Source: a virus. From it: a DNA stretch of 27,417 nucleotides. Position numbers and translations under genes: made by a program. Positions 4,570 to 14,379 of the stretch are shown one piece after another. The notes beneath the pieces were generated by a model that was not told the origin of the DNA, did no database searches, and saw only the letters and a program-made list of their open reading frames with translations. Location: IMG/VR virus record IMGVR_UViG_3300005532_000035, positions 1 to 27,417 of that record. One strand, 5' to 3'. Every line of letters begins with the position of its first letter. The stretch's first letter is position 1.

Positions 4570-4827
4570 CTATTCGCTCACATAGCGCTTATCGAGTCCA
4601 TTGCGCTCATGCAGAGTGTCCACGTACTTCATCAGTGAGTCGTAGTTAATGCGCCACGGGCTGTTCCACTTGTCCGGGCGGATCTTGTACGCCTGAAGAG
4701 TGCCGTCTTCGATCATGCGGCAAATGGTGTTGATGGAAACATCGAGAATCTCCGCCGCGCGCGCAGCCGAGATGGTGCGGCGCGGGTGCCACGGTAACAG
4801 AAGCTGGTCTGGCACGCGGAAGCTCAT
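4570..4827 (-). CDS. Excisionase-like helix-turn-helix protein
   Basis: The product has 85 aa and starts in an ATGA overlap with the upstream gene. The central segment ISAARAAEILDVSINTICRM followed by IEDGTLQAYKI is a MerR/excisionase-type helix-turn-helix (HTH_17-like) covering about residues 18-50, with a short winged C-terminal extension. It is the last gene of the tightly coupled early operon. DNA binding is well supported. The specific role is unknown; control of late transcription or of the fibre genes downstream is possible but speculative. Confidence 0.75.
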   Translation of the reverse strand: MSFRVPDQLLLPWHPRRTISAARAAEILDVSINTICRMIEDGTLQAYKIRPDKWNSPWRINYDSLMKYVDTLHERNGLDKRYVSE

Positions 4828-5048
4828 TCGCGCACCTCGACATCGGGCACGATATGCAATTTCCGCAGGAAATCGGCATCTGACTGGATGTGTTCAGGCA
4901 GCCGCTCTATCAACGCTTCAATCATCACTCCGTTTACGCGAATGCCAGCAGTATGTAGCTGGCGCACCACGCTGGCGGTCTTCTCGTGGGTAAGAATGGC
5001 TTCGGTTGCGGCTTCGATAAGTAATCTCGCTGCGCGTTCAAGCGTCAT
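4824..5048 (-). CDS. Small early hypothetical protein
   Basis: The product has 74 aa and overlaps both neighbours by 4 nt. It is predicted mostly helical, with an N-terminal amphipathic stretch (LERAARLLIEAATEAILTHEK) and a second helix around residues 38-50. There are no cysteine clusters, membrane segments or recognised motifs. Its only functional clue is its place inside the early operon, and no family could be assigned. Confidence 0.65.
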   Translation of the reverse strand: MTLERAARLLIEAATEAILTHEKTASVVRQLHTAGIRVNGVMIEALIERLPEHIQSDADFLRKLHIVPDVEVRE

Positions 5049-5587
5049 GCGGTCCGTCTCCTGTATTCTCCTTCATCTCTCCACACGCCGCGCGATTGCG
5101 CCATGCGCTTGAGTGCCCACCAGACGCGGTTTGCGTCACCGACGGTACGGATTGCTGGATTGGAGCGCTTACCCAAAGGAGAGCGCGGTGAGCGGAGCCA
5201 TGCTTCGAGTTGCTCCTGTGTCCAGCCGAGTAGGTCGAGTGCGTACTGAATTCGCGCGAGGTCGTGCGGGCCTACGAGCGTATGTTTATCAGGCGAGCCA
5301 TCGCGACGGCCTTCTGTGCCCGCCTGCAGGGCGGCCTCACGGCTGAGCCGTTCCCGCTTTTTTGCCGGTGCTTTCACGCCGAGCTGCTGTTGCGTGATAT
5401 CAATGAGGTGCTTCGCGTCGTTGAAAGTCAGGTCGCTGAACGAAGATATTTTCCGGCAGACAAGCTGCGAGGCCCAGGCCAGCCGCGCTTCACGGCTGCC
5501 GTCACCACCATCGAAGGTGCTGCGTACGAGCTGTGCATACAGCACCTGCAGGCGCTTCATCTGTGCGGGTGTGATCTTCGCTTCCAT
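5045..5587 (-). CDS. Early phage protein, possibly GemA/gp16-like (DUF1018)
   Basis: The product has 180 aa. ATG at 5587 is preceded by AAGGA about seven bases upstream, inside the end of the previous gene. The N-terminal part (ITPAQMKRLQVLYAQL, then SFSDLTFNDAKHLIDI) and the C-terminal half (LARIQYALDLLGWTQEQLEAWL, then a DANRVWWALKRM helix) are reminiscent of the helical Mu gp16/GemA family, which acts early in infection. A linker rich in charged residues (about 72-100) separates the halves. The similarity is by eye only, so the family call is tentative. The gene ends in an ATGA overlap with the next. Confidence 0.6.
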   Translation of the reverse strand: MEAKITPAQMKRLQVLYAQLVRSTFDGGDGSREARLAWASQLVCRKISSFSDLTFNDAKHLIDITQQQLGVKAPAKKRERLSREAALQAGTEGRRDGSPDKHTLVGPHDLARIQYALDLLGWTQEQLEAWLRSPRSPLGKRSNPAIRTVGDANRVWWALKRMAQSRGVWRDEGEYRRRTA

Positions 5588-5590
5588 CGT

Positions 5591-5770
5591 TCAGTCCTTA
5601 CTTTTCTGTTTTCGTGGTCTTCCGCGTTTGCGTTTCTTTCCGCATTGTTCGCATATCTGACTGCGAAGCTCCGCGCGGAAGTCGGCGAGCACGCACGCCT
5701 CGCTGCAAAACCTCATTCTGGGATGTTTGACCAGATTGCTGCATCCTGGCCGCTGGCACTGAAGTGGCAT
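5591..5770 (-). CDS. Small zinc-finger protein nested in the end of the upstream gene
   Basis: The product has 59 aa. ATG at 5770 has a strong ribosome binding site (AAGGAG, 4 nt spacing). The protein reads CQRPGC, then RFCSEAC, then ICEQCGKK, followed by a Lys/Arg-rich tail (KRKRGRPRKQKSKD). This gives a six-cysteine zinc-binding module with a basic, AT-hook-like end (RGRPRK), so DNA or RNA binding is likely. It overlaps the last 173 bp of the 152-codon frame in another phase. The protein-like pattern and the strong start site argue that this frame is the real one here. It ends 3 bp before the next gene starts. Confidence 0.75.
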   Translation of the reverse strand: MPLQCQRPGCSNLVKHPRMRFCSEACVLADFRAELRSQICEQCGKKRKRGRPRKQKSKD

Positions 5771-6056
5771 CGTTCTCCTTCCCCTGTTTCACTTCATGCA
5801 GGGAGGCGCCGAGGATGCCGTACCCTGCAATATCTCTGTATGGTGATTCGCCCAGCGCATCGCAGTCCGTGGCAATGCGCTGGAGCTTGTCAAAAATGCG
5901 CGTGATGAGCAGCGCATCATCGTACTGCTCCGGCAAAATACCGTTTGGATACAAAAGGCCGAGAAACTCACCCGTCTTGGCAAAGCTGTTGCCGTAGGCA
6001 GCGTTCTTCTGCTCGACCAGCTCGCCGATTTGTTGGGCGATGGCGCGGAAGGTCAT
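5598..6056 (-). CDS. Small early protein resembling DUF1599/Nmad1-type phage proteins
   Basis: The 152-aa frame starts in an ATGA overlap with the receiver gene. Residues about 1-95 look like a conserved phage helical domain: VEQKNAAYGNSF, then ITRIFDKLQRIAT, then GESPYRDIAGYGILGA, a pattern I associate with the DUF1599 (nucleotide-modification-associated) or MazG-like helical families. The last about 57 residues are Thr/Arg/Gln-rich and overlap the 59-codon zinc-finger gene in another phase. That tail looks like antiselected read-through rather than a domain, so the ancestral protein may have ended near residue 97. Function is inferred only from the pattern. Confidence 0.65.
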   Translation of the reverse strand: MTFRAIAQQIGELVEQKNAAYGNSFAKTGEFLGLLYPNGILPEQYDDALLITRIFDKLQRIATDCDALGESPYRDIAGYGILGASLHEVKQGKENDATSVPAARMQQSGQTSQNEVLQRGVRARRLPRGASQSDMRTMRKETQTRKTTKTEK

Positions 6057-6478
6057 GCTGACCTCCGTAGGGCTTCACTTGATGCTACCGATTGGGCGAG
6101 GTTCTTTTTGTGTGCCCCCGGCTTGCGGGCCGTAAGCAGTTTTACGCGATAAAGCATTTCGGCAGCAGATGCACCCTTTGGCAAAAAGGAATCTGCATGG
6201 TGCGCGGCAGAATAGTTCATCGTGGCACCGCTATAAATAATTACTGGTACCTCGGCGTCTATATCCTTCAGGCGTGCTGCGAGGTCGTTGCCATTCATAC
6301 CAGGCATGATGAGGTCAGTGAGCACCAGGTGAGGCCGCTGCTGCTCAAATATCAGAATGGCTTCCTCGCCACTCATTGCCGTCAGCACGCGAAAGCCGTG
6401 TGTTTCCAGCACAATTCGGCGCAGTCCCAGGACGGTTTCGTTATCGTCCACGCATAGGATTATTTTCCGCAGCCTCAT
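6053..6478 (-). CDS. Stand-alone CheY-like response-regulator receiver protein
   Basis: The product has 141 aa. All hallmark receiver residues are present: the acidic pair D11/D12 (CVDDNE), phospho-acceptor D55 in LVLTDLIMPGMNG, the conserved Ser at 83 (IIYSGAT) and Lys101 (FLPKG). The receiver fold ends at about residue 120 and the last about 20 residues are an unstructured tail, so there is no output domain. It probably receives phosphate from a host histidine kinase, or titrates one. It is embedded in the early operon with ATGA overlaps on both sides, which ties its expression to the lytic early phase. I recall no such gene in Mu. Confidence 0.9.
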   Translation of the reverse strand: MRLRKIILCVDDNETVLGLRRIVLETHGFRVLTAMSGEEAILIFEQQRPHLVLTDLIMPGMNGNDLAARLKDIDAEVPVIIYSGATMNYSAAHHADSFLPKGASAAEMLYRVKLLTARKPGAHKKNLAQSVASSEALRRSA

Positions 6479-6774
6479 GCCACCACCTCGGGTTTCTTTG
6501 CTATGCGGGCCTCAATGGCGGCGATCTCTTTTTCCAGAACCTCAATCATGCGCGTTTTCTTTTCGGCTTCTGCAACGGCGATCTGGGCGCGGACCGTGGC
6601 GAGAAGATAAGCGCGGACGCTGCCTCCCCGCTTCCATTCATCGAACGTGCGACAGGCTTCATGCTGGATGCGCAGAGGAACCTTCTTCCAATGACGGGCG
6701 CACATCAGGTATTCGCTTCGGATAACGGCATTGCAGCCGGCGACACAGCACGGCTTTGTCTTCCGCTCGTTCAT
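6475..6774 (-). CDS. Small zinc-binding phage protein with coiled-coil C-terminus
   Basis: The product has 99 aa, with ATGA overlaps at both ends. The N-terminus has CCVAGCN, then LMCARHWKKVP, the CxxxGC..MCxxHWxxVP arrangement seen in many small phage and plasmid proteins and expected to bind one zinc ion. From about residue 55 it is a charged helix (AQIAVAEAEKKTRM, then EKEIAAIEARI), probably a coiled coil. No enzyme motif is visible. Nucleic-acid or protein binding is likely. Confidence 0.75.
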   Translation of the reverse strand: MNERKTKPCCVAGCNAVIRSEYLMCARHWKKVPLRIQHEACRTFDEWKRGGSVRAYLLATVRAQIAVAEAEKKTRMIEVLEKEIAAIEARIAKKPEVVA

Positions 6775-7208
6775 TGCTTTGCCTCAAGTTGAAGTTGGCC
6801 GAGCAGCTCCAGCGCGGACTGGTGGCCGGCCACGGCGCGCACGACTTCGAGTTCGGCGCGTATCTGGTCGAGCGGACCTTTCAGAAAGACCGCCTGGTCT
6901 TCCGGCGTGATGATGATGAAGTAACCGCCATCTGTGCCATGCTTCGAGCTGCCAATGGGCAGACGGAAGCTGATGCGCAGCGTGCGCACGATAAGTTTGA
7001 TCTGGCGGTCACTCATCTTCAGGCGCTGCGTCAGCTCGCGGATCGGCAAGGCATTGCCTGCGCCGCGATGGTAACGGATGGCCTGGAGCACGGCCTTTTC
7101 TTCCGGTTGGAGGCGCAGGCCCAGAGGGCCACCGCTCTCGCCCACCAGCAGGCTGGCAATGTACTGGTCAATTTCAATCACACGGTCTGGAAACAAATGC
7201 CCGTTCAT
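6771..7208 (-). CDS. Winged-helix DNA-binding early protein
   Basis: The product has 145 aa. ATG at 7208 lies in an ATGA overlap with the upstream stop, which fixes the start. Residues about 45-105 contain a winged helix: ALPIRELTQRLKMSDRQIKL is the helix-turn-helix, followed by a beta wing (HGTDGGYFIII). The C-terminus (LDQIRAELEVVRAVAGHQ) is a helical, possibly dimerising segment. It may regulate the operon or aid replication; the sequence does not tell which. Confidence 0.7.
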   Translation of the reverse strand: MNGHLFPDRVIEIDQYIASLLVGESGGPLGLRLQPEEKAVLQAIRYHRGAGNALPIRELTQRLKMSDRQIKLIVRTLRISFRLPIGSSKHGTDGGYFIIITPEDQAVFLKGPLDQIRAELEVVRAVAGHQSALELLGQLQLEAKQ

Positions 7209-7405
7209 CGCTTCCCCGCTTTTCTTGCGCAGTCCGGGCAGAGTTCTCGCATCCGCCCGCTTTCCAGCTTGCGGCGCGACCATCCATCGCAGCGCGCGTC
7301 ATCGCGCAGATCGCGGGGAGTGATGAACGCTCCGTCCCTCAGCCCTGTGCTGGGATACATCCTTTTGCACGAATCGCATTCAAGAGCAATAAAAGTGCGC
7401 AGCAT
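7205..7405 (-). CDS. Small zinc-ribbon protein
   Basis: The product has 66 aa. ATG at 7405 overlaps the upstream TGA by one base (TGATG). Two CxxC knuckles (CDSCKRMYP near residue 10 and LCPDCARK near 57) with a basic stretch between them form a classic zinc ribbon. Such proteins usually bind nucleic acid or act as adaptors. It is one of several zinc proteins in this operon and has no recognised family. Confidence 0.75.
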   Translation of the reverse strand: MLRTFIALECDSCKRMYPSTGLRDGAFITPRDLRDDARCDGWSRRKLESGRMRELCPDCARKAGKR

Positions 7406-9101: not shown

Positions 9102-9344
9102 CTACTGCACCGCCTGGGCCACGCGGCCATCAAAGAATGCCGGAACGATTTCGACCAGCAGCCAGACCACAACCGTGAGCAGAAACACAGTGCAAAGCAT
9201 GTCGCCGAGGCTGCGAGGCTTACGCGGATGTACCGTGATCTCGACGTCTTCAGGCGGCACACCGCCAAGCAATGGGTCTACATGCGCAGCCTCAAAGCGA
9301 ATCATGCCGTACTTGCAACGCAGAACTTCTTTGTAGGAATTCAT
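9102..9344 (-). CDS. Small single-pass membrane protein
   Basis: The product has 80 aa. The start overlaps the end of the MuB gene (ATGA). After a polar N-terminal half, residues about 49-68 form one strong membrane segment (MLCTVFLLTVVVWLLVEIV). In Mu the small gene after B is kil, a host-killing protein, but no sequence similarity can be claimed. A membrane-acting early protein such as an exclusion or division inhibitor is conceivable. Confidence 0.7.
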   Translation of the reverse strand: MNSYKEVLRCKYGMIRFEAAHVDPLLGGVPPEDVEITVHPRKPRSLGDMLCTVFLLTVVVWLLVEIVPAFFDGRVAQAVQ

Positions 9345-10387
9345 GCGACCACTGCCTCCTTCGTTTCACTGGCTTCGGTGGCTGACTGACGAATCTGGTC
9401 GAGCGCGTTGGTCAGCGTGCGGATGTTGATGTAGGTGCGGCCCCGCTCAAATGCGTCCTTCGTCACGGCCTGGTCAATGAGCTTTTCGACCAGCGCTGTG
9501 GCTTTTTCGGGCTGCATCGGCGCGAGCAGGGCGCCGATCTCACGGCGCACAATGCCGTGCGCTTCTTCCCGCAGCAGGCCGGGCAGTTTGACTTTGGCGA
9601 TGATGCGCGAGTTCCACTGCTCCAGAGTGGCCGAGAAACGGTCGAATTTTTGTTTCAGGTCATGCGACCCGGCAAAGAGCAATGAAAAAAATGGCGGTTG
9701 GTCGAGCAGCTCGCGCAAAACCTCGAAGCACTCAATCTCCAGATGCTGGGCCTCATCCACTACGAGCAGCACGCGACGGTTCTGGAAATCGAAACGAATA
9801 TTCGAGAGCATCCGGTCAATGTCATTCCCTGCCTGCGAGCCGCAGGCCGCGGCCACGCGCTTCATCAGATCGCGCGGGCGCAGGTTCTGCCGTGCGTAGA
9901 CGTAATAGGCGCGACGCCCATGTCCATTCTTTGCCAGCTCTTCCCGATTGAGCCGCGCAACCTCGTGCTCCAGCACAAAGCTCTTCTGCGATCCCGGAGG
10001 CGCATAGATCATATAAGCGACCGGCTTTGGGAGGAGCTTCTGGAAGGTGTCACGGATCATGCGCACGTTCGCCGTGTCATATAGTTCGCCGACCACGCGG
10101 TGCGGCGGTTCTATCGGGTGTGCGCGCATGTACTCATCAATGGCTTTGCGAATGCGCGCGTCATTGCCCGCGGCGGCGTGGTACATATCGCGCAGGTAGA
10201 AGCCGAGCGTGACGCCGGAATAGCCGATGCGGCGCGCGAAGTCATTCGGGTGCAGGCCCGCGCGCTGGATGTAGTCCTTGACCGCGACAATGTGATTGCG
10301 GCGCTCCCGGGCATTTGCCTCCAGGCGCCGGCTGTTGTCGTTGTCAATCCGGCGAATACCGTATTCGCGGTGTTCCCCTTTCCTCAC
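9341..10387 (-). CDS. B: MuB-like AAA+ ATPase, transposition target selector
   Basis: The product has 348 aa. It starts at GTG in a GTGA overlap with the transposase stop, with GGAGG 7 nt upstream. An N-terminal helix-turn-helix region (about 35-70, DFARRIGYSGVTLGFYL) precedes an ATPase domain with Walker A YAPPGSQKS (about 128-136), Walker B RVLLVVDEAQHL (about 205-216, D211/E212) and a sensor-like LLFAGSHD. MuB binds target DNA as ATP-dependent filaments, stimulates MuA and confers target immunity. Position and architecture both match the family. Length is near that of Mu B (312 aa). Confidence 0.93.
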   Translation of the reverse strand: MRKGEHREYGIRRIDNDNSRRLEANARERRNHIVAVKDYIQRAGLHPNDFARRIGYSGVTLGFYLRDMYHAAAGNDARIRKAIDEYMRAHPIEPPHRVVGELYDTANVRMIRDTFQKLLPKPVAYMIYAPPGSQKSFVLEHEVARLNREELAKNGHGRRAYYVYARQNLRPRDLMKRVAAACGSQAGNDIDRMLSNIRFDFQNRRVLLVVDEAQHLEIECFEVLRELLDQPPFFSLLFAGSHDLKQKFDRFSATLEQWNSRIIAKVKLPGLLREEAHGIVRREIGALLAPMQPEKATALVEKLIDQAVTKDAFERGRTYINIRTLTNALDQIRQSATEASETKEAVVA

Positions 10388-12474
10388 TTGAGTGCCTCCA
10401 GAAAATTAGCTGCGATATCGGCAGCCGACGGGGGCGCGGCTGCTTCAGGATCGGGTTTCAGTTTGGGAGCGCGGTGTGTCAGCGCGTTCTCTACGATGGG
10501 GGAAACCTTCGCGCGTTCAGCGAGCATCGCGACGGGGGGCCGCGCGCCATTTGCGCGCGCTGCGAGACTGATGCTGTCCAACGCATTGCGCACGGATTTT
10601 TCAAAGTGCCGGCGGTCTGCCATGCTCTCGCCAATCCGGCGCTGGATTTCTTTGTCGGCAGGATCGAATCCGATTCGCTCTTCAGCACGCGCCCAGCAAA
10701 GAAAATGCCCGCCGGCATCGAGAACTGCGACTCCGTCCGGATCGAGCGGATCGTAGGCCACGATGACCTCGCGCTCATTCATCTCGTGCAGGACATCGCG
10801 TGAGACTGCGTCGTAGTGGATGTAACGGCGTTTGTTCAGCTCGATGGCGCACTCGCGCACCTTGCGGCGCGTCTGCTCGGCAAGCAGGAGCGCAAGGGAC
10901 TGGCTATCCAGACGTTGCGCGCCGCGCGCGGGATTCTGCTCCGATGCAAAGACTTCAGCCGGAGTGCGTCCGTCCATGCCTTCGCCGGAGTGCGGGCGCT
11001 GGTGATATTCTTCGATCCATGCCATGCACAACGCGATGAAGACGCTTGCCGGGGGATGCAGCGACTCATCCACACGCCCATGCTTCATCAGCTTGCGGTG
11101 CATCTGCATTGCGGCAGATGTGGCATCCGGACGGAGGTGCGAAGCGCCTCCGGTGTAGTTCTGATAGAAACGCTTATCAAACTGCTGATGCAGGGTGCCG
11201 AAAAAGCGCTCCACATGCTTCGATTGCGGATGACGCACGATGCAATGCGTGACCTTGATGCCGAGCCGGGCCAGAATTCCCTGCTGTTCGATCTCGAGCA
11301 TTTCGCGCTCATGCCAGCCGCGAATTTCTTCCGGGTCGGACAGATACGCAGGCAGCGCGCCTTTGGCAACCTTCAGGTAGTCCTTGCCGTTGTCGCAGTA
11401 GAAATGCTCGCATGGGCCATGCTGGGCGAATGCCCGGCGCATGGCTGTGGCAATCGAGCGCGAGCTGCCTTCCCACGCCCAGCTCGTGCCCACGACATAG
11501 CGCGAGCGGAAATCCAGCAGGCAGGTAAAGCGCAGCCGAATCGGCGCGCCATACGGCGCTTCGAAGAAGCAATCGTTCATCACCTCCACGTCATGGATCA
11601 TGTGATCGCTGACCCATATCTGGTTGGCAAACACATCGCTGTAGCTGCGGCTGAGATACGGGGCCATGCGCTCCTGATATGCACGGCGGCCCTCGCGGGC
11701 ATAAGTCCGGAGAGAAGGCGGCGCACTGGCCAGCCAGTTGCGGACGGTGTTGTAGCTCGGCAGTTGAGTCACGCCGAGCAGCTCCGCATCCTGAACAATC
11801 GCTTCGTGGCAGACGCGATAACTCTGCCTGCAATTCAGGTAGAGATAGGCCGCCAGCGCAGCGGCCTTCGGGTGCTGCTGGAACCAGCGCGAAGTGTTCT
11901 TGTCCTCGCGTTGCTTGTCGGCCAGCGCTGGGAACCCACCATCGCGGTAACGCTTCAGCCAGAGTTTAACCGTGCGCTGAGAAATTCTGTGTGTCTCCGC
12001 CTGATACAGCACCATGCGCGAGCGCGACGTGACCGCGCGGCCATCGCTGAGGCGAAGTTGCGCGTAGCGCTCCGGATTGTAATTGACGATGGGGTCGAGA
12101 ACCGCAAGGCGCTGTTCTGCCTGCGCCTGGTCTTCCGGGTCGGGCAGCGTCACGCGCGCCAACGTGTCAGAGGGCTGACTGGTGAAGAGCGTAAGAGCGG
12201 CGGGTTGCGGTGCGCTCACGGATTGCTCCCCACCAGTCATCTTCCTGCGGGCCTCCGGCGGCAAGGACCCCGCAAGATATTCACGAATGCGACGGCCATT
12301 TCGCGCAAACTGGCCGGATTCACGCGAGACGATATTGCCAATCTCGGCTTGCTTCCGCAACCAACGGTCGCTCCAGCCTGTGACCGCCATCACTTGCTCA
12401 GTGGTCAGCCACTCACCTGCCTGCTCCGGTGCCGTTGACGCAGGCAGAACGTAGATTGCCGCCTGCGCGCTCAT
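10384..12474 (-). CDS. A: MuA-like DDE transposase
   Basis: The product has 696 aa. ATG at 12474 lies in an ATGA overlap with a strong GGAGGAAG site. N-terminal helix-turn-helix domains (about 20-70 and 140-185) would bind the prophage ends. The catalytic core shows D290 (WVSDHM), D361 (YCDNGKDY) and E422 (QSKHVERFFGT), matching the DDE triad of MuA (D269, D336, E392). A beta-barrel segment follows (about 545-610), then a C-terminal tail (AADIAANFLEAL) of the type that contacts MuB. The protein cuts and joins prophage ends during integration and replicative transposition. It is slightly longer than Mu A (663 aa) and appears intact. Confidence 0.97.
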   Translation of the reverse strand: MSAQAAIYVLPASTAPEQAGEWLTTEQVMAVTGWSDRWLRKQAEIGNIVSRESGQFARNGRRIREYLAGSLPPEARRKMTGGEQSVSAPQPAALTLFTSQPSDTLARVTLPDPEDQAQAEQRLAVLDPIVNYNPERYAQLRLSDGRAVTSRSRMVLYQAETHRISQRTVKLWLKRYRDGGFPALADKQREDKNTSRWFQQHPKAAALAAYLYLNCRQSYRVCHEAIVQDAELLGVTQLPSYNTVRNWLASAPPSLRTYAREGRRAYQERMAPYLSRSYSDVFANQIWVSDHMIHDVEVMNDCFFEAPYGAPIRLRFTCLLDFRSRYVVGTSWAWEGSSRSIATAMRRAFAQHGPCEHFYCDNGKDYLKVAKGALPAYLSDPEEIRGWHEREMLEIEQQGILARLGIKVTHCIVRHPQSKHVERFFGTLHQQFDKRFYQNYTGGASHLRPDATSAAMQMHRKLMKHGRVDESLHPPASVFIALCMAWIEEYHQRPHSGEGMDGRTPAEVFASEQNPARGAQRLDSQSLALLLAEQTRRKVRECAIELNKRRYIHYDAVSRDVLHEMNEREVIVAYDPLDPDGVAVLDAGGHFLCWARAEERIGFDPADKEIQRRIGESMADRRHFEKSVRNALDSISLAARANGARPPVAMLAERAKVSPIVENALTHRAPKLKPDPEAAAPPSAADIAANFLEALK

Positions 12475-12845
12475 TCTTCCTCCCCGGTGACATCAACAAG
12501 GAACCGCTCGGCTTTTCGCTTTCTCGCATAAGCTATGCCTATCGCGATCAGACGAAGTTCTTTGTGTCCGACCATGCGAAAACCTGCACGGCGCACGCGA
12601 TCACGCAGGAGCCTGTAGTCTCCCACGGCTTCACAGAAAGCGATGTCGTATGCCGCAGGCCAGCGGTGCGCTGATTTTGCCTCGGCAGTGAAGGCATTAA
12701 GCATATGTTCAGTTACCCGAACACCAAGAAGCCTGCTCATGTCGTCTGCTATTTGCGCCCTGCTTTTCCCGGAGCGTTTAATCGCCCTATTCAAAACGCT
12801 GCGAATTGAAACGCCATCATTGGCGCGGTGAGTGCGTCTGGTCAC
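12471..12845 (-). CDS. Early regulator-like protein, second paralogue
   Basis: The product has 124 aa. It starts at GTG in a GTGA overlap, with a GGGGTGG-type site upstream. The core KSRAQIADDMSRLLG, then RWPAAYDIAFCEAVGDYRLL, is shared with the gene just upstream, so the two are tandem paralogues. A helix-turn-helix-like segment covers about residues 25-45. The family is familiar from genes preceding the A transposase in Mu-like phages, but its role is undescribed to my knowledge. Confidence 0.75.
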   Translation of the reverse strand: MTRRTHRANDGVSIRSVLNRAIKRSGKSRAQIADDMSRLLGVRVTEHMLNAFTAEAKSAHRWPAAYDIAFCEAVGDYRLLRDRVRRAGFRMVGHKELRLIAIGIAYARKRKAERFLVDVTGEEE

Positions 12846-13336
12846 AGTTCCACCCCTTGCAGCCGTTTTTCTAAGAGCTGAACGCGTTCATTTGCCCGCT
12901 TTTGCCGAAGATATTCGCGGCCAAGTTCCAAAAGCTCAATTTCGTCGGCGGTGATGAGCCTATAGCCGGCAAGCTCTGCCCGGCAGCGCAGCAGTGTGTC
13001 ATCCCCGGTCGCATGGCAGAAGGCCCGGTCAAGTTCTGCAGGCCAGCGGTAATCTGTTCGGCTCTCGGCGGTGAATTTGTTAAGTGATATTTCCGTTAGC
13101 TTGCGTCCGCTGAGAAAACTGATTTCTTCTGCAAGCTGTGCGCGGCTTTTCTTGCATTTCCTGATCGAGTCCGTAAGGACCTTTCGTACCAACTCGCCAT
13201 CATCAAAGCAGCCAAACTGCACCTCAGAAGCCGATTGGAATAAGTTGGTCTGGTTGTTCCCGGAAAATTTCTCTGAAGAGCTAGCCGTTGCAGATAAAGC
13301 ACCTTGCCTCGGAAACTGTGCATGTGATGATTTCAT
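12842..13336 (-). CDS. Early regulator-like protein, first paralogue with N-terminal extension
   Basis: The product has 164 aa. ATG at 13336 lies in an ATGA overlap with the Ner-like gene. Residues about 60-130 (KSRAQLAEEISFLSG, then RWPAELDRAFCHATGDDTLL) are the same domain as in the next gene, while the first about 45 residues are an unrelated Ser/Gln-rich extension. The C-terminus is a charged helix (LRQKRANERVQLLEKRL). Helix-turn-helix character suggests DNA binding near the operator or the transposase. Confidence 0.75.
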   Translation of the reverse strand: MKSSHAQFPRQGALSATASSSEKFSGNNQTNLFQSASEVQFGCFDDGELVRKVLTDSIRKCKKSRAQLAEEISFLSGRKLTEISLNKFTAESRTDYRWPAELDRAFCHATGDDTLLRCRAELAGYRLITADEIELLELGREYLRQKRANERVQLLEKRLQGVEL

Positions 13337-13545
13337 GCAGCACGCTCCGAAACGATTTTGCTGAATTCCTGCTTGAACGCTCGCATCACTCTCACGGAGT
13401 GGCGGCGACCCATAACAACCTCTTTAACGTGGTGGGAGGAAACGCCAAGTTGGCGAGCAACCCTGGTGTAAATCCCACGATATCGAGCGGCCTTTTCAAG
13501 TTCCGCTCTGATTCGGATAACATTAACCGTGGAATATCTCGTCAT
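13333..13545 (-). CDS. Ner-like small DNA-binding protein, first early gene
   Basis: The product has 70 aa from ATG at 13545; an ATG at 13575 would add 10 residues but would sit inside the operator palindrome. Residues about 20-55 (RVARQLGVSSHHVKEVVMG) form a helix-turn-helix. Its place as first gene of the leftward operon, divergent from the repressor, matches Mu ner, which turns down early transcription. If the promoter at 13556-13585 is used, the message has almost no leader. Ner identity is inferred from position and the motif. Confidence 0.7.
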   Translation of the reverse strand: MTRYSTVNVIRIRAELEKAARYRGIYTRVARQLGVSSHHVKEVVMGRRHSVRVMRAFKQEFSKIVSERAA

Positions 13546-13546
13546 T

Positions 13547-13575
13547 ATGAAAGTGAGCATAATGCGCGCTTTCAT
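13547..13575. promoter_or_regulatory. 29-bp palindromic operator between repressor and early operon
   Basis: A palindrome is centred on 13561. Outer arms ATGAAAG (13547-13553) and CTTTCAT (13569-13575) and inner arms GCAT (13557-13560) and ATGC (13562-13565) pair perfectly; 12 of 14 base pairs match overall. It covers the -10 box of the leftward promoter and the possible -10 of the rightward one. The position strongly suggests the binding site for the repressor, the Ner-like protein, or both. Confidence 0.75.
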
Positions 13576-13585
13576 ATTCCGTCAA
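13556..13585 (-). promoter_or_regulatory. Leftward early promoter
   Basis: On the minus strand a TTGACG -35 box (13580-13585) is separated by 18 bp from a TATGCT -10 box (13556-13561). Transcription would start near 13549, just before the ATG at 13545. The -10 box lies at the centre of the 29-bp palindrome, so bound regulator would block polymerase. A CATAAT at 13558-13563 could be the -10 of the opposing repressor promoter, but its -35 is weak. Confidence 0.6.
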
Positions 13586-13596
13586 GGGAAAAGTGT

Positions 13597-14379
13597 GTGC
13601 CTGTGAAAAAAAAACGCGCTGATGATATCGGGAGTAGAATTAAGGCCCTTCGGACAAAGTTGCAGATGAATCAAAGCGCGTTTGCTGTATCGCTCGGCGC
13701 GAACCAGGGGACTGTCTCCAATTGGGAAAAGGGAAAGAACCGCCCGACTCCGGATGCTTTTGTGCGGATAGCAAAGCTGGCAGAAGACCCTGAAGACAAG
13801 ATGTTTTTCCTCGACCAAGCTGGAGTGCCAGACACCTACTTTCTGGGTTCGCCCATGCCACCTGAAATTCTTATGGCGACCACTGAGGTCGTCGCCAAAG
13901 CGATTCCCACAGCCAAAGGCGCAATGCAGCCTTTACCTATCGTTAATCCGGTGCGTAAAATCCCTTTATTAAAAAACCCTAAAAAACTAGGGACGAAGGA
14001 CGCTCTGGAAGCTGTGAATATAGATGATTCTCTGCCTTTGCCTGCCGGATGGTTCCCTCAAGAATCTGCCATCCACGCCGTAAAATTCTCTAACCTGAGT
14101 TCCCTGTTCACGGAAGGGGAAATTATTGGCCTGATTGATGTTCATTGGCGCGACCCCGATCGTTTAATCGGACAAATTGTTGCTGTCCGAACGGAGGAAG
14201 GTATCGAGCCAATGAAACTCCGCAAAGACGGATCGGCCTATCTTCTTTTACCTTTGCGGCCAAATGCTGAGGCGCGGTTATTGCGGCCTAGCGGAAATGG
14301 AAGTATTGTTGGCCGTCTTGTGAAGTGGATCGCTGACGCTCCCGGCCCTGATGTCACAAATAGAAAAAAAAGAATATAA
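13597..14379 (+). CDS. XRE/CI-type phage repressor with LexA-like C-terminus
   Basis: The product has 260 aa. GTG at 13597 has AAGGGA 7 nt upstream; a GTG at 13603 is a weaker choice. Residues about 13-62 form an XRE helix-turn-helix (QSAFAVSLGANQGTVSNWEKG). The C-terminal part (LFTEGEIIGLI, then RLIGQIVAVR, then SIVGRLVKW) has the S24/LexA beta-fold pattern, with K in MKLRK in the catalytic-lysine position but no clear SM motif for the serine, so self-cleavage is uncertain. It is divergent from the early operon across the palindrome, as expected for the lysogeny repressor. Confidence 0.85.
   Translation: MPVKKKRADDIGSRIKALRTKLQMNQSAFAVSLGANQGTVSNWEKGKNRPTPDAFVRIAKLAEDPEDKMFFLDQAGVPDTYFLGSPMPPEILMATTEVVAKAIPTAKGAMQPLPIVNPVRKIPLLKNPKKLGTKDALEAVNIDDSLPLPAGWFPQESAIHAVKFSNLSSLFTEGEIIGLIDVHWRDPDRLIGQIVAVRTEEGIEPMKLRKDGSAYLLLPLRPNAEARLLRPSGNGSIVGRLVKWIADAPGPDVTNRKKRI

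Follow-up and report, generated by a model that had tools for sequence, protein, structure and literature searches.

Introduction

Receiver domains carried by phages and receiver domains that have departed from the canonical phosphorylation switch are each known from previous work. In Rhodobacter sphaeroides, the single-domain receiver Osp, which is devoid of the acidic pair, binds directly to the kinase CckA and thereby inhibits it, as described in the cited excerpt (PMC9430884). Osp and FixT share with the decayed phage homologues presented below the single receiver domain and the missing acidic pair, but both are chromosomal, the same excerpt mentions no KRGP tail, and the phage protein at the center of this study keeps the acidic pair (PMC9430884). 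The receiver of FrzS from Myxococcus xanthus resembles the decayed relatives in that its fold works without a phosphorylated aspartate, although, according to the excerpt of the respective study, it is part of a non-viral motility protein, whereas the aspartate is present in the phage protein investigated here (PMC1974792). In Pseudomonas phage LSL4, the early protein PIT4 targets two-component systems of the host; it binds histidine kinase domains and differs from our protein in that the excerpt of its source does not call it a receiver (PMC10714779). Finally, the cREC domain of jumbo phages is likewise a phage-associated divergent receiver domain, which is linked to NAD+/ADP-ribose enzymes and in this respect differs from the receiver described here, for which a Pfam scan of neighbor genes found none (PMC7824862).

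A viral family that is based on one core host receiver, with its tail kept and its switch erased, was not found described in the literature surveyed. Our survey of the open-licence literature on phage-encoded and pseudo-receivers yielded no account of this viral receiver family, and no dedicated model for the viral or the host family was found in Pfam, PHROGs or NCBIfam. The viral takeover of two-component signaling is itself rarely documented. In the present case, a single core host regulator faces several viral copies that were acquired separately and have for the most part lost the switch, which points to its importance in the infection of Acidobacteriaceae, a group that is very abundant among soil bacteria. 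The stretch of DNA analyzed in this study, termed the window, is a virus record of 27,417 bases (IMG/VR IMGVR_UViG_3300005532_000035) without host chromosome.

The receiver gene and its operon

The gene of interest extends from position 6053 to 6478 of the window, as reported in an initial annotation, and resides on the minus strand, with the plus strand showing no open frame in this interval. Its product of 141 residues matches the receiver family PF00072 between model positions 1 and 110 of 111 (E-value 1.7e-19, 70.5 bits at a curated cut-off of 30.2 bits), thus defining a receiver domain that encompasses residues 7–112 (6143–6460, minus). Sequence and an alignment with 80 host receivers place the acidic pair D11-D12, which would bind Mg2+, at 6443–6448, the predicted phosphoacceptor D55 at 6314–6316, the switch residue S83 at 6230–6232 and the conserved lysine K101 at 6176–6178 (all minus), so that each of the hallmarks listed in the initial annotation is present. 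The claimed absence of an output domain holds as well, since PF00072 is the sole match and just 29 residues, modeled with low confidence, follow residue 112. The basic N-terminus MRLRK (6464–6478, minus) corresponds to the conserved family form MRPKK, and the C-terminal tail ARKPGAHK (residues 117–124; 6107–6130, minus) deviates in the alignment from the family form ARKRGPKK. AlphaFold2 predicts a confident (beta-alpha)5 receiver fold (mean pLDDT 87.9, with about 52 in the tail), and Foldseek matches this model to conventional receivers, among them YycF, Spo0F and DivK. With the open frame, the domain match, the codon statistics given below and the modeled fold in agreement, and with the D-D/D/S/K set complete, we conclude that the protein is a real single-domain receiver, which may be phosphorylated.

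The gene is embedded in a leftward cluster and displays ATGA overlaps on both sides. Directly upstream, a 99-residue gene related to phrog_18063 (6475–6774, minus) ends at 6475, inside the receiver start at 6478, and the end of the receiver gene at 6053 in turn overlaps the start at 6056 of a 152-residue gene related to phrog_1485 (5598–6056, minus). The former and a 180-residue gene further downstream (5045–5587, minus), which is Mu gp16-like by position only and without Pfam match, served as markers of the slot occupied by the receiver. Next to the 99-residue gene lies a 170-residue gene of phrog_2113 (6771–7283, minus), whose homologues provided a bait that is independent of the receiver. 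The cluster begins with genes coding for a MuA-like transposase (10384–12474, minus; PF09299, phrog_310) and a MuB-like transposition ATPase (9341–10387, minus; PF13401, phrog_296), and the earlier assignment of the receiver to a transposition operon therefore stands. A repressor-like gene (13288–14379, plus; HTH_3, phrog_4) is oriented divergently. With a MuA protein containing Mu-transpos_C and a MuB-like ATPase, the carrier classifies as a Mu-like transposable phage. The position in the operon suggests that the receiver would be expressed early, together with the transposition genes; a promoter scan of the window did not exceed the level expected by chance. Among the scanned neighbor genes of the window, no Pfam match to an NAD+/ADP-ribose enzyme, as associated with cREC, was detected, and the matches obtained with PADLOC were too weak to carry meaning. 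A second record (L003) is identical to the window in every window protein that it covers.

Conservation of the slot in related phages and prophages

In a sister phage (L004), whose MuA is 82% identical, the same slot contains a receiver with 67% identity that retains all five residues and ends in the tail ARKRGPRK. When compared by codon, the two receivers show a dN/dS of about 0.08, and their synonymous sites are close to being saturated. The slot of L005 (MuA 58% identical) is occupied by different genes, that of L011 by a homologue lacking the acidic pair and the lysine, and that of L006 by a receiver that is even more diverged than the one in L011. To obtain a sample of slots that is not biased by the receiver itself, viral contigs were fetched with the 170-residue neighbor gene as bait. 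Of the resulting 31 contigs, two end too soon, and among the 29 that are adequately covered a receiver homologue is found in 22, whereas the seven related phages without a receiver in their slot indicate that the gene is dispensable.

Prophages of the same type are contained in genomes of Acidobacteriaceae, which were selected as members of the family that includes G021, the genome harboring the host locus L037. A first scan of the genomes with a MuA alignment had returned no matches. Three of these prophages (L212, L213 and L214) carry decayed receivers in the slot, and a fourth (L216, on a 6.3-Mb contig), with MuA and MuB being 68% and 78% identical to their counterparts in the window, has a slot without receiver.

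A host counterpart in Acidobacteriaceae

A genome scan with four phage receivers identified at least 552 relatives, of which the best 80 (L025–L104) were analyzed. These 80 originate from Acidobacteriaceae or other Terriglobia, except for one odd metagenome-assembled genome. The locus L074, labeled Rhodanobacteraceae, displays the gene neighborhood of Acidobacteriaceae and probably lies on a contig that was assigned to the wrong taxon. The host proteins share an MRPKK start and an RKRGP end, with K119-R120-G121-P122 found in all of the best 80 of at least 552 relatives. Since the patterns used for the host scan omitted the tail, this conservation was not built into the search. Among the matches listed, the closest host gene is about 50–53% identical to the window receiver.

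The counterpart was detected in 177 of 200 genomes of Acidobacteriaceae, nearly always as a single gene, and in 17 of 149 genomes of an even phylum sample. All seven genomes inspected for copy number contain one copy, which scores about 200–240 bits compared to at most 105 bits for the next receiver. Its neighbors, named from their sequences without a family scan, are chromosomal and conserved, comprising a PhzF-type gene and a peroxiredoxin followed by an ABC ATPase, a RecG-like helicase or a PIN-domain gene. No kinase gene recurs beside the counterpart in the neighborhoods of the host loci. The presence of a single copy, the conserved neighbors and the absence of a recurring adjacent kinase gene make the host protein look like an orphan core regulator, and a described function for this KRGP-tailed receiver was not found in the literature surveyed.

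The window protein shares with this core receiver (MRPKK...ARKRGPKK) the fold, the length, the intact active site, the basic N-terminus and its position in the tree. It is, however, only about 50% identical, is borne by a phage and carries the tail RKPGA instead of RKRGP. It thus groups with the MRPKK/RKRGP family without displaying its tail, and we describe it as a homologue carried by a virus, without counting it among the members of the host family.

Loss of the switch and retention of the ends in viral copies

A scan of viral contigs that used the N-terminus and the tail as patterns uncovered 41 loci. Many of them derive from Mu-like phages that share this operon and others from unrelated phages, where some are located near methyltransferase-like genes. 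Most of the 41 proteins lack the phosphorylation residues and 18 are missed by the Pfam receiver model. Since the ends of the protein were part of the search patterns, tail conservation in this set is partly built in. We have thus based any claim concerning the tail on the scan with the neighbor gene, on the phages L006 and L011, which were fetched with MuA, and on the host scan. The loci L022–L024 of other phages, which code for ordinary receivers lacking the tail, were not included as family members. Matches in annotated phage records, which all remain below 60% identity and mostly resemble bacterial regulators in contaminated or uncurated records, were disregarded.

The neighbor-gene bait retrieved 19 distinct slot proteins, in which the complete set of five residues is found in only two, the window receiver and its homologue in L004. 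The other 17 have lost it and, in contrast to the window protein, they would qualify as atypical or pseudo-receivers, defined by the loss of the acidic pair or the phosphoacceptor. KRGP is found in 18 of the 19 proteins, the exception being the window with KPGA, and the 17 decayed proteins all keep KRGP and nearly always MRPKK. Their identity to the host consensus amounts to 0.94 in residues 1–5 and 0.81 in the tail, but drops to 0.22 in the acidic (DD) loop, to 0.27 near K101 and to 0.14 in the loop that follows D55. The decayed copies are not pseudogenes, as evident from dN/dS values of 0.14–0.22 in four pairs, which indicate purifying selection, and from the retained receiver fold, which for the decayed protein of L126 was found with AlphaFold2 and Foldseek. 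Two proteins of other phages (L019 and L106) have their phosphorylation residues intact.

Origin of the viral receivers

In a phylogenetic tree, the receivers of the window and L004 are placed among host sequences and apart from the main decayed clade, in a set of 22 rows that includes 17 hosts and has a support of 98/94. A tree constrained to unite all slot receivers in a single clade was rejected (AU test, p = 0.011). Both results suggest that the slot has probably been filled more than once, although long branches are involved, which weaken the receiver tree. As judged from the phylogeny, the viral receivers require several acquisitions, and the window copy was acquired separately from the main decayed clade.

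Proposed function

In the receiver fold, strand 1 begins and helix 5 ends on the face opposite to the phosphorylation site. The MRPKK segment and the KRGP tail would therefore form one basic surface, to which the first six residues contribute a net charge of about +3 to +4 and the tail one of +4 to +5, in a protein whose core is acidic. Since this surface survives the loss of the active site, it would be the surface rather than phosphotransfer that is needed by most of these phages, and the contrast between a lost active site and a kept KRGP tail marks it as a candidate functional region. We consider the chances to be about even that the viral receivers mimic or compete with the core host regulator via this conserved surface, mostly independent of phosphorylation, while the window copy may still be phosphorylated. 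The pattern of conservation would in this case reflect mimicry of partner binding by the host regulator, and it suggests that these viruses imitate the regulator rather than sense signals. Using the basic surface, the viral proteins would bind to the partner that the host regulator normally engages, and they would substitute for the host protein, compete with it or lock it in a state independent of its kinase. The window copy could, in addition, take phosphate from a host kinase and serve as a phosphate sink or as a signal-responsive variant, and since its tail is the least typical it may act differently. More tentatively, we propose that phages have repeatedly captured the core host receiver into one slot and converted it into a family of phosphorylation-blind decoys that act via their basic ends. 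If true, this would constitute a viral decoy-receiver family directed against one host regulator.

A basic surface fits binding to nucleic acids and to proteins equally well. The fold might scaffold a basic patch, made up of MRPKK and the KRGP tail, for binding to DNA or RNA of either the phage or its host, perhaps together with a zinc-finger/AT-hook protein encoded downstream. In the window, a 59-residue open reading frame (5591–5770, minus), whose translation contains a zinc-finger-like cysteine pattern and the AT-hook KRKRGRPRK, is placed out of frame over the 152-residue gene. Frames with related zinc-finger/AT-hook motifs are found downstream of the receiver in 10 of 16 loci of the Mu type and, in one phage (L132:6001–6612), a decayed KRGP-tailed receiver is fused in frame to a relative of the zinc-finger protein, with the 203-residue product reaching its stop at the contig end. 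The charge distribution, the frame at 5591–5770 and this natural fusion make the nucleic-acid role a serious rival. Yet the RGR core that characterizes an AT-hook is missing from the tail, and outside the Mu-type phages the zinc-finger neighbor seldom accompanies this tail (0 of 24 loci in other phages and 3 of 80 in hosts). In our judgment, this role is unlikely.

Somewhat more doubtful is the view that the phage receiver serves as phosphate acceptor for a histidine kinase of the host, thereby reading or draining a host two-component pathway during infection. Intact phosphotransfer residues in the window and L004, where the gene is under strong purifying selection, and likewise in L019 and L106 would agree with such a role. 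However, the gene is kept in the 17 of 19 slot homologues that have lost these residues, and phosphotransfer thus cannot be the general function; sensing by this mechanism appears possible only for the window copy and a few others (L004, L019 and L106). In the initial annotation, the phage was suggested to sense or redirect host signaling during early lytic growth. The redirecting part is plausible in light of purifying selection, the slot and the homology to a core regulator, whereas sensing as a general function does not agree with the decayed majority. That the gene is neutral cargo, recently captured from a host and without a role in the phage, is very improbable and largely excluded, even though several related phages lack it, by the ATGA coupling, the low dN/dS of about 0.08 at near-saturated synonymous sites, a slot that is conserved in distant relatives and an identity of about 50% to the nearest hosts among the matches listed, where an accidental recent capture would appear as a near-identical host gene absent from related phages.

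Variation in neighboring genes

Several genes in the vicinity of the receiver vary between phages. The MuB-like gene of the window (9341–10387) is only 43% identical to its equivalent in L004 (12103–13116), compared to 82% for MuA and about 60–86% for most flanking genes, and these identities make it likely that MuB was swapped between phages. Between the repressor and MuA, the window contains two tandem paralogues of 124 and 164 residues with about 45% identity (12471–13336, minus), of which its relatives hold one or two copies. An excisionase-like helix-turn-helix gene that is single in the window (4570–4827) has two to three tandem matches in L008, L009, L011 and L214.
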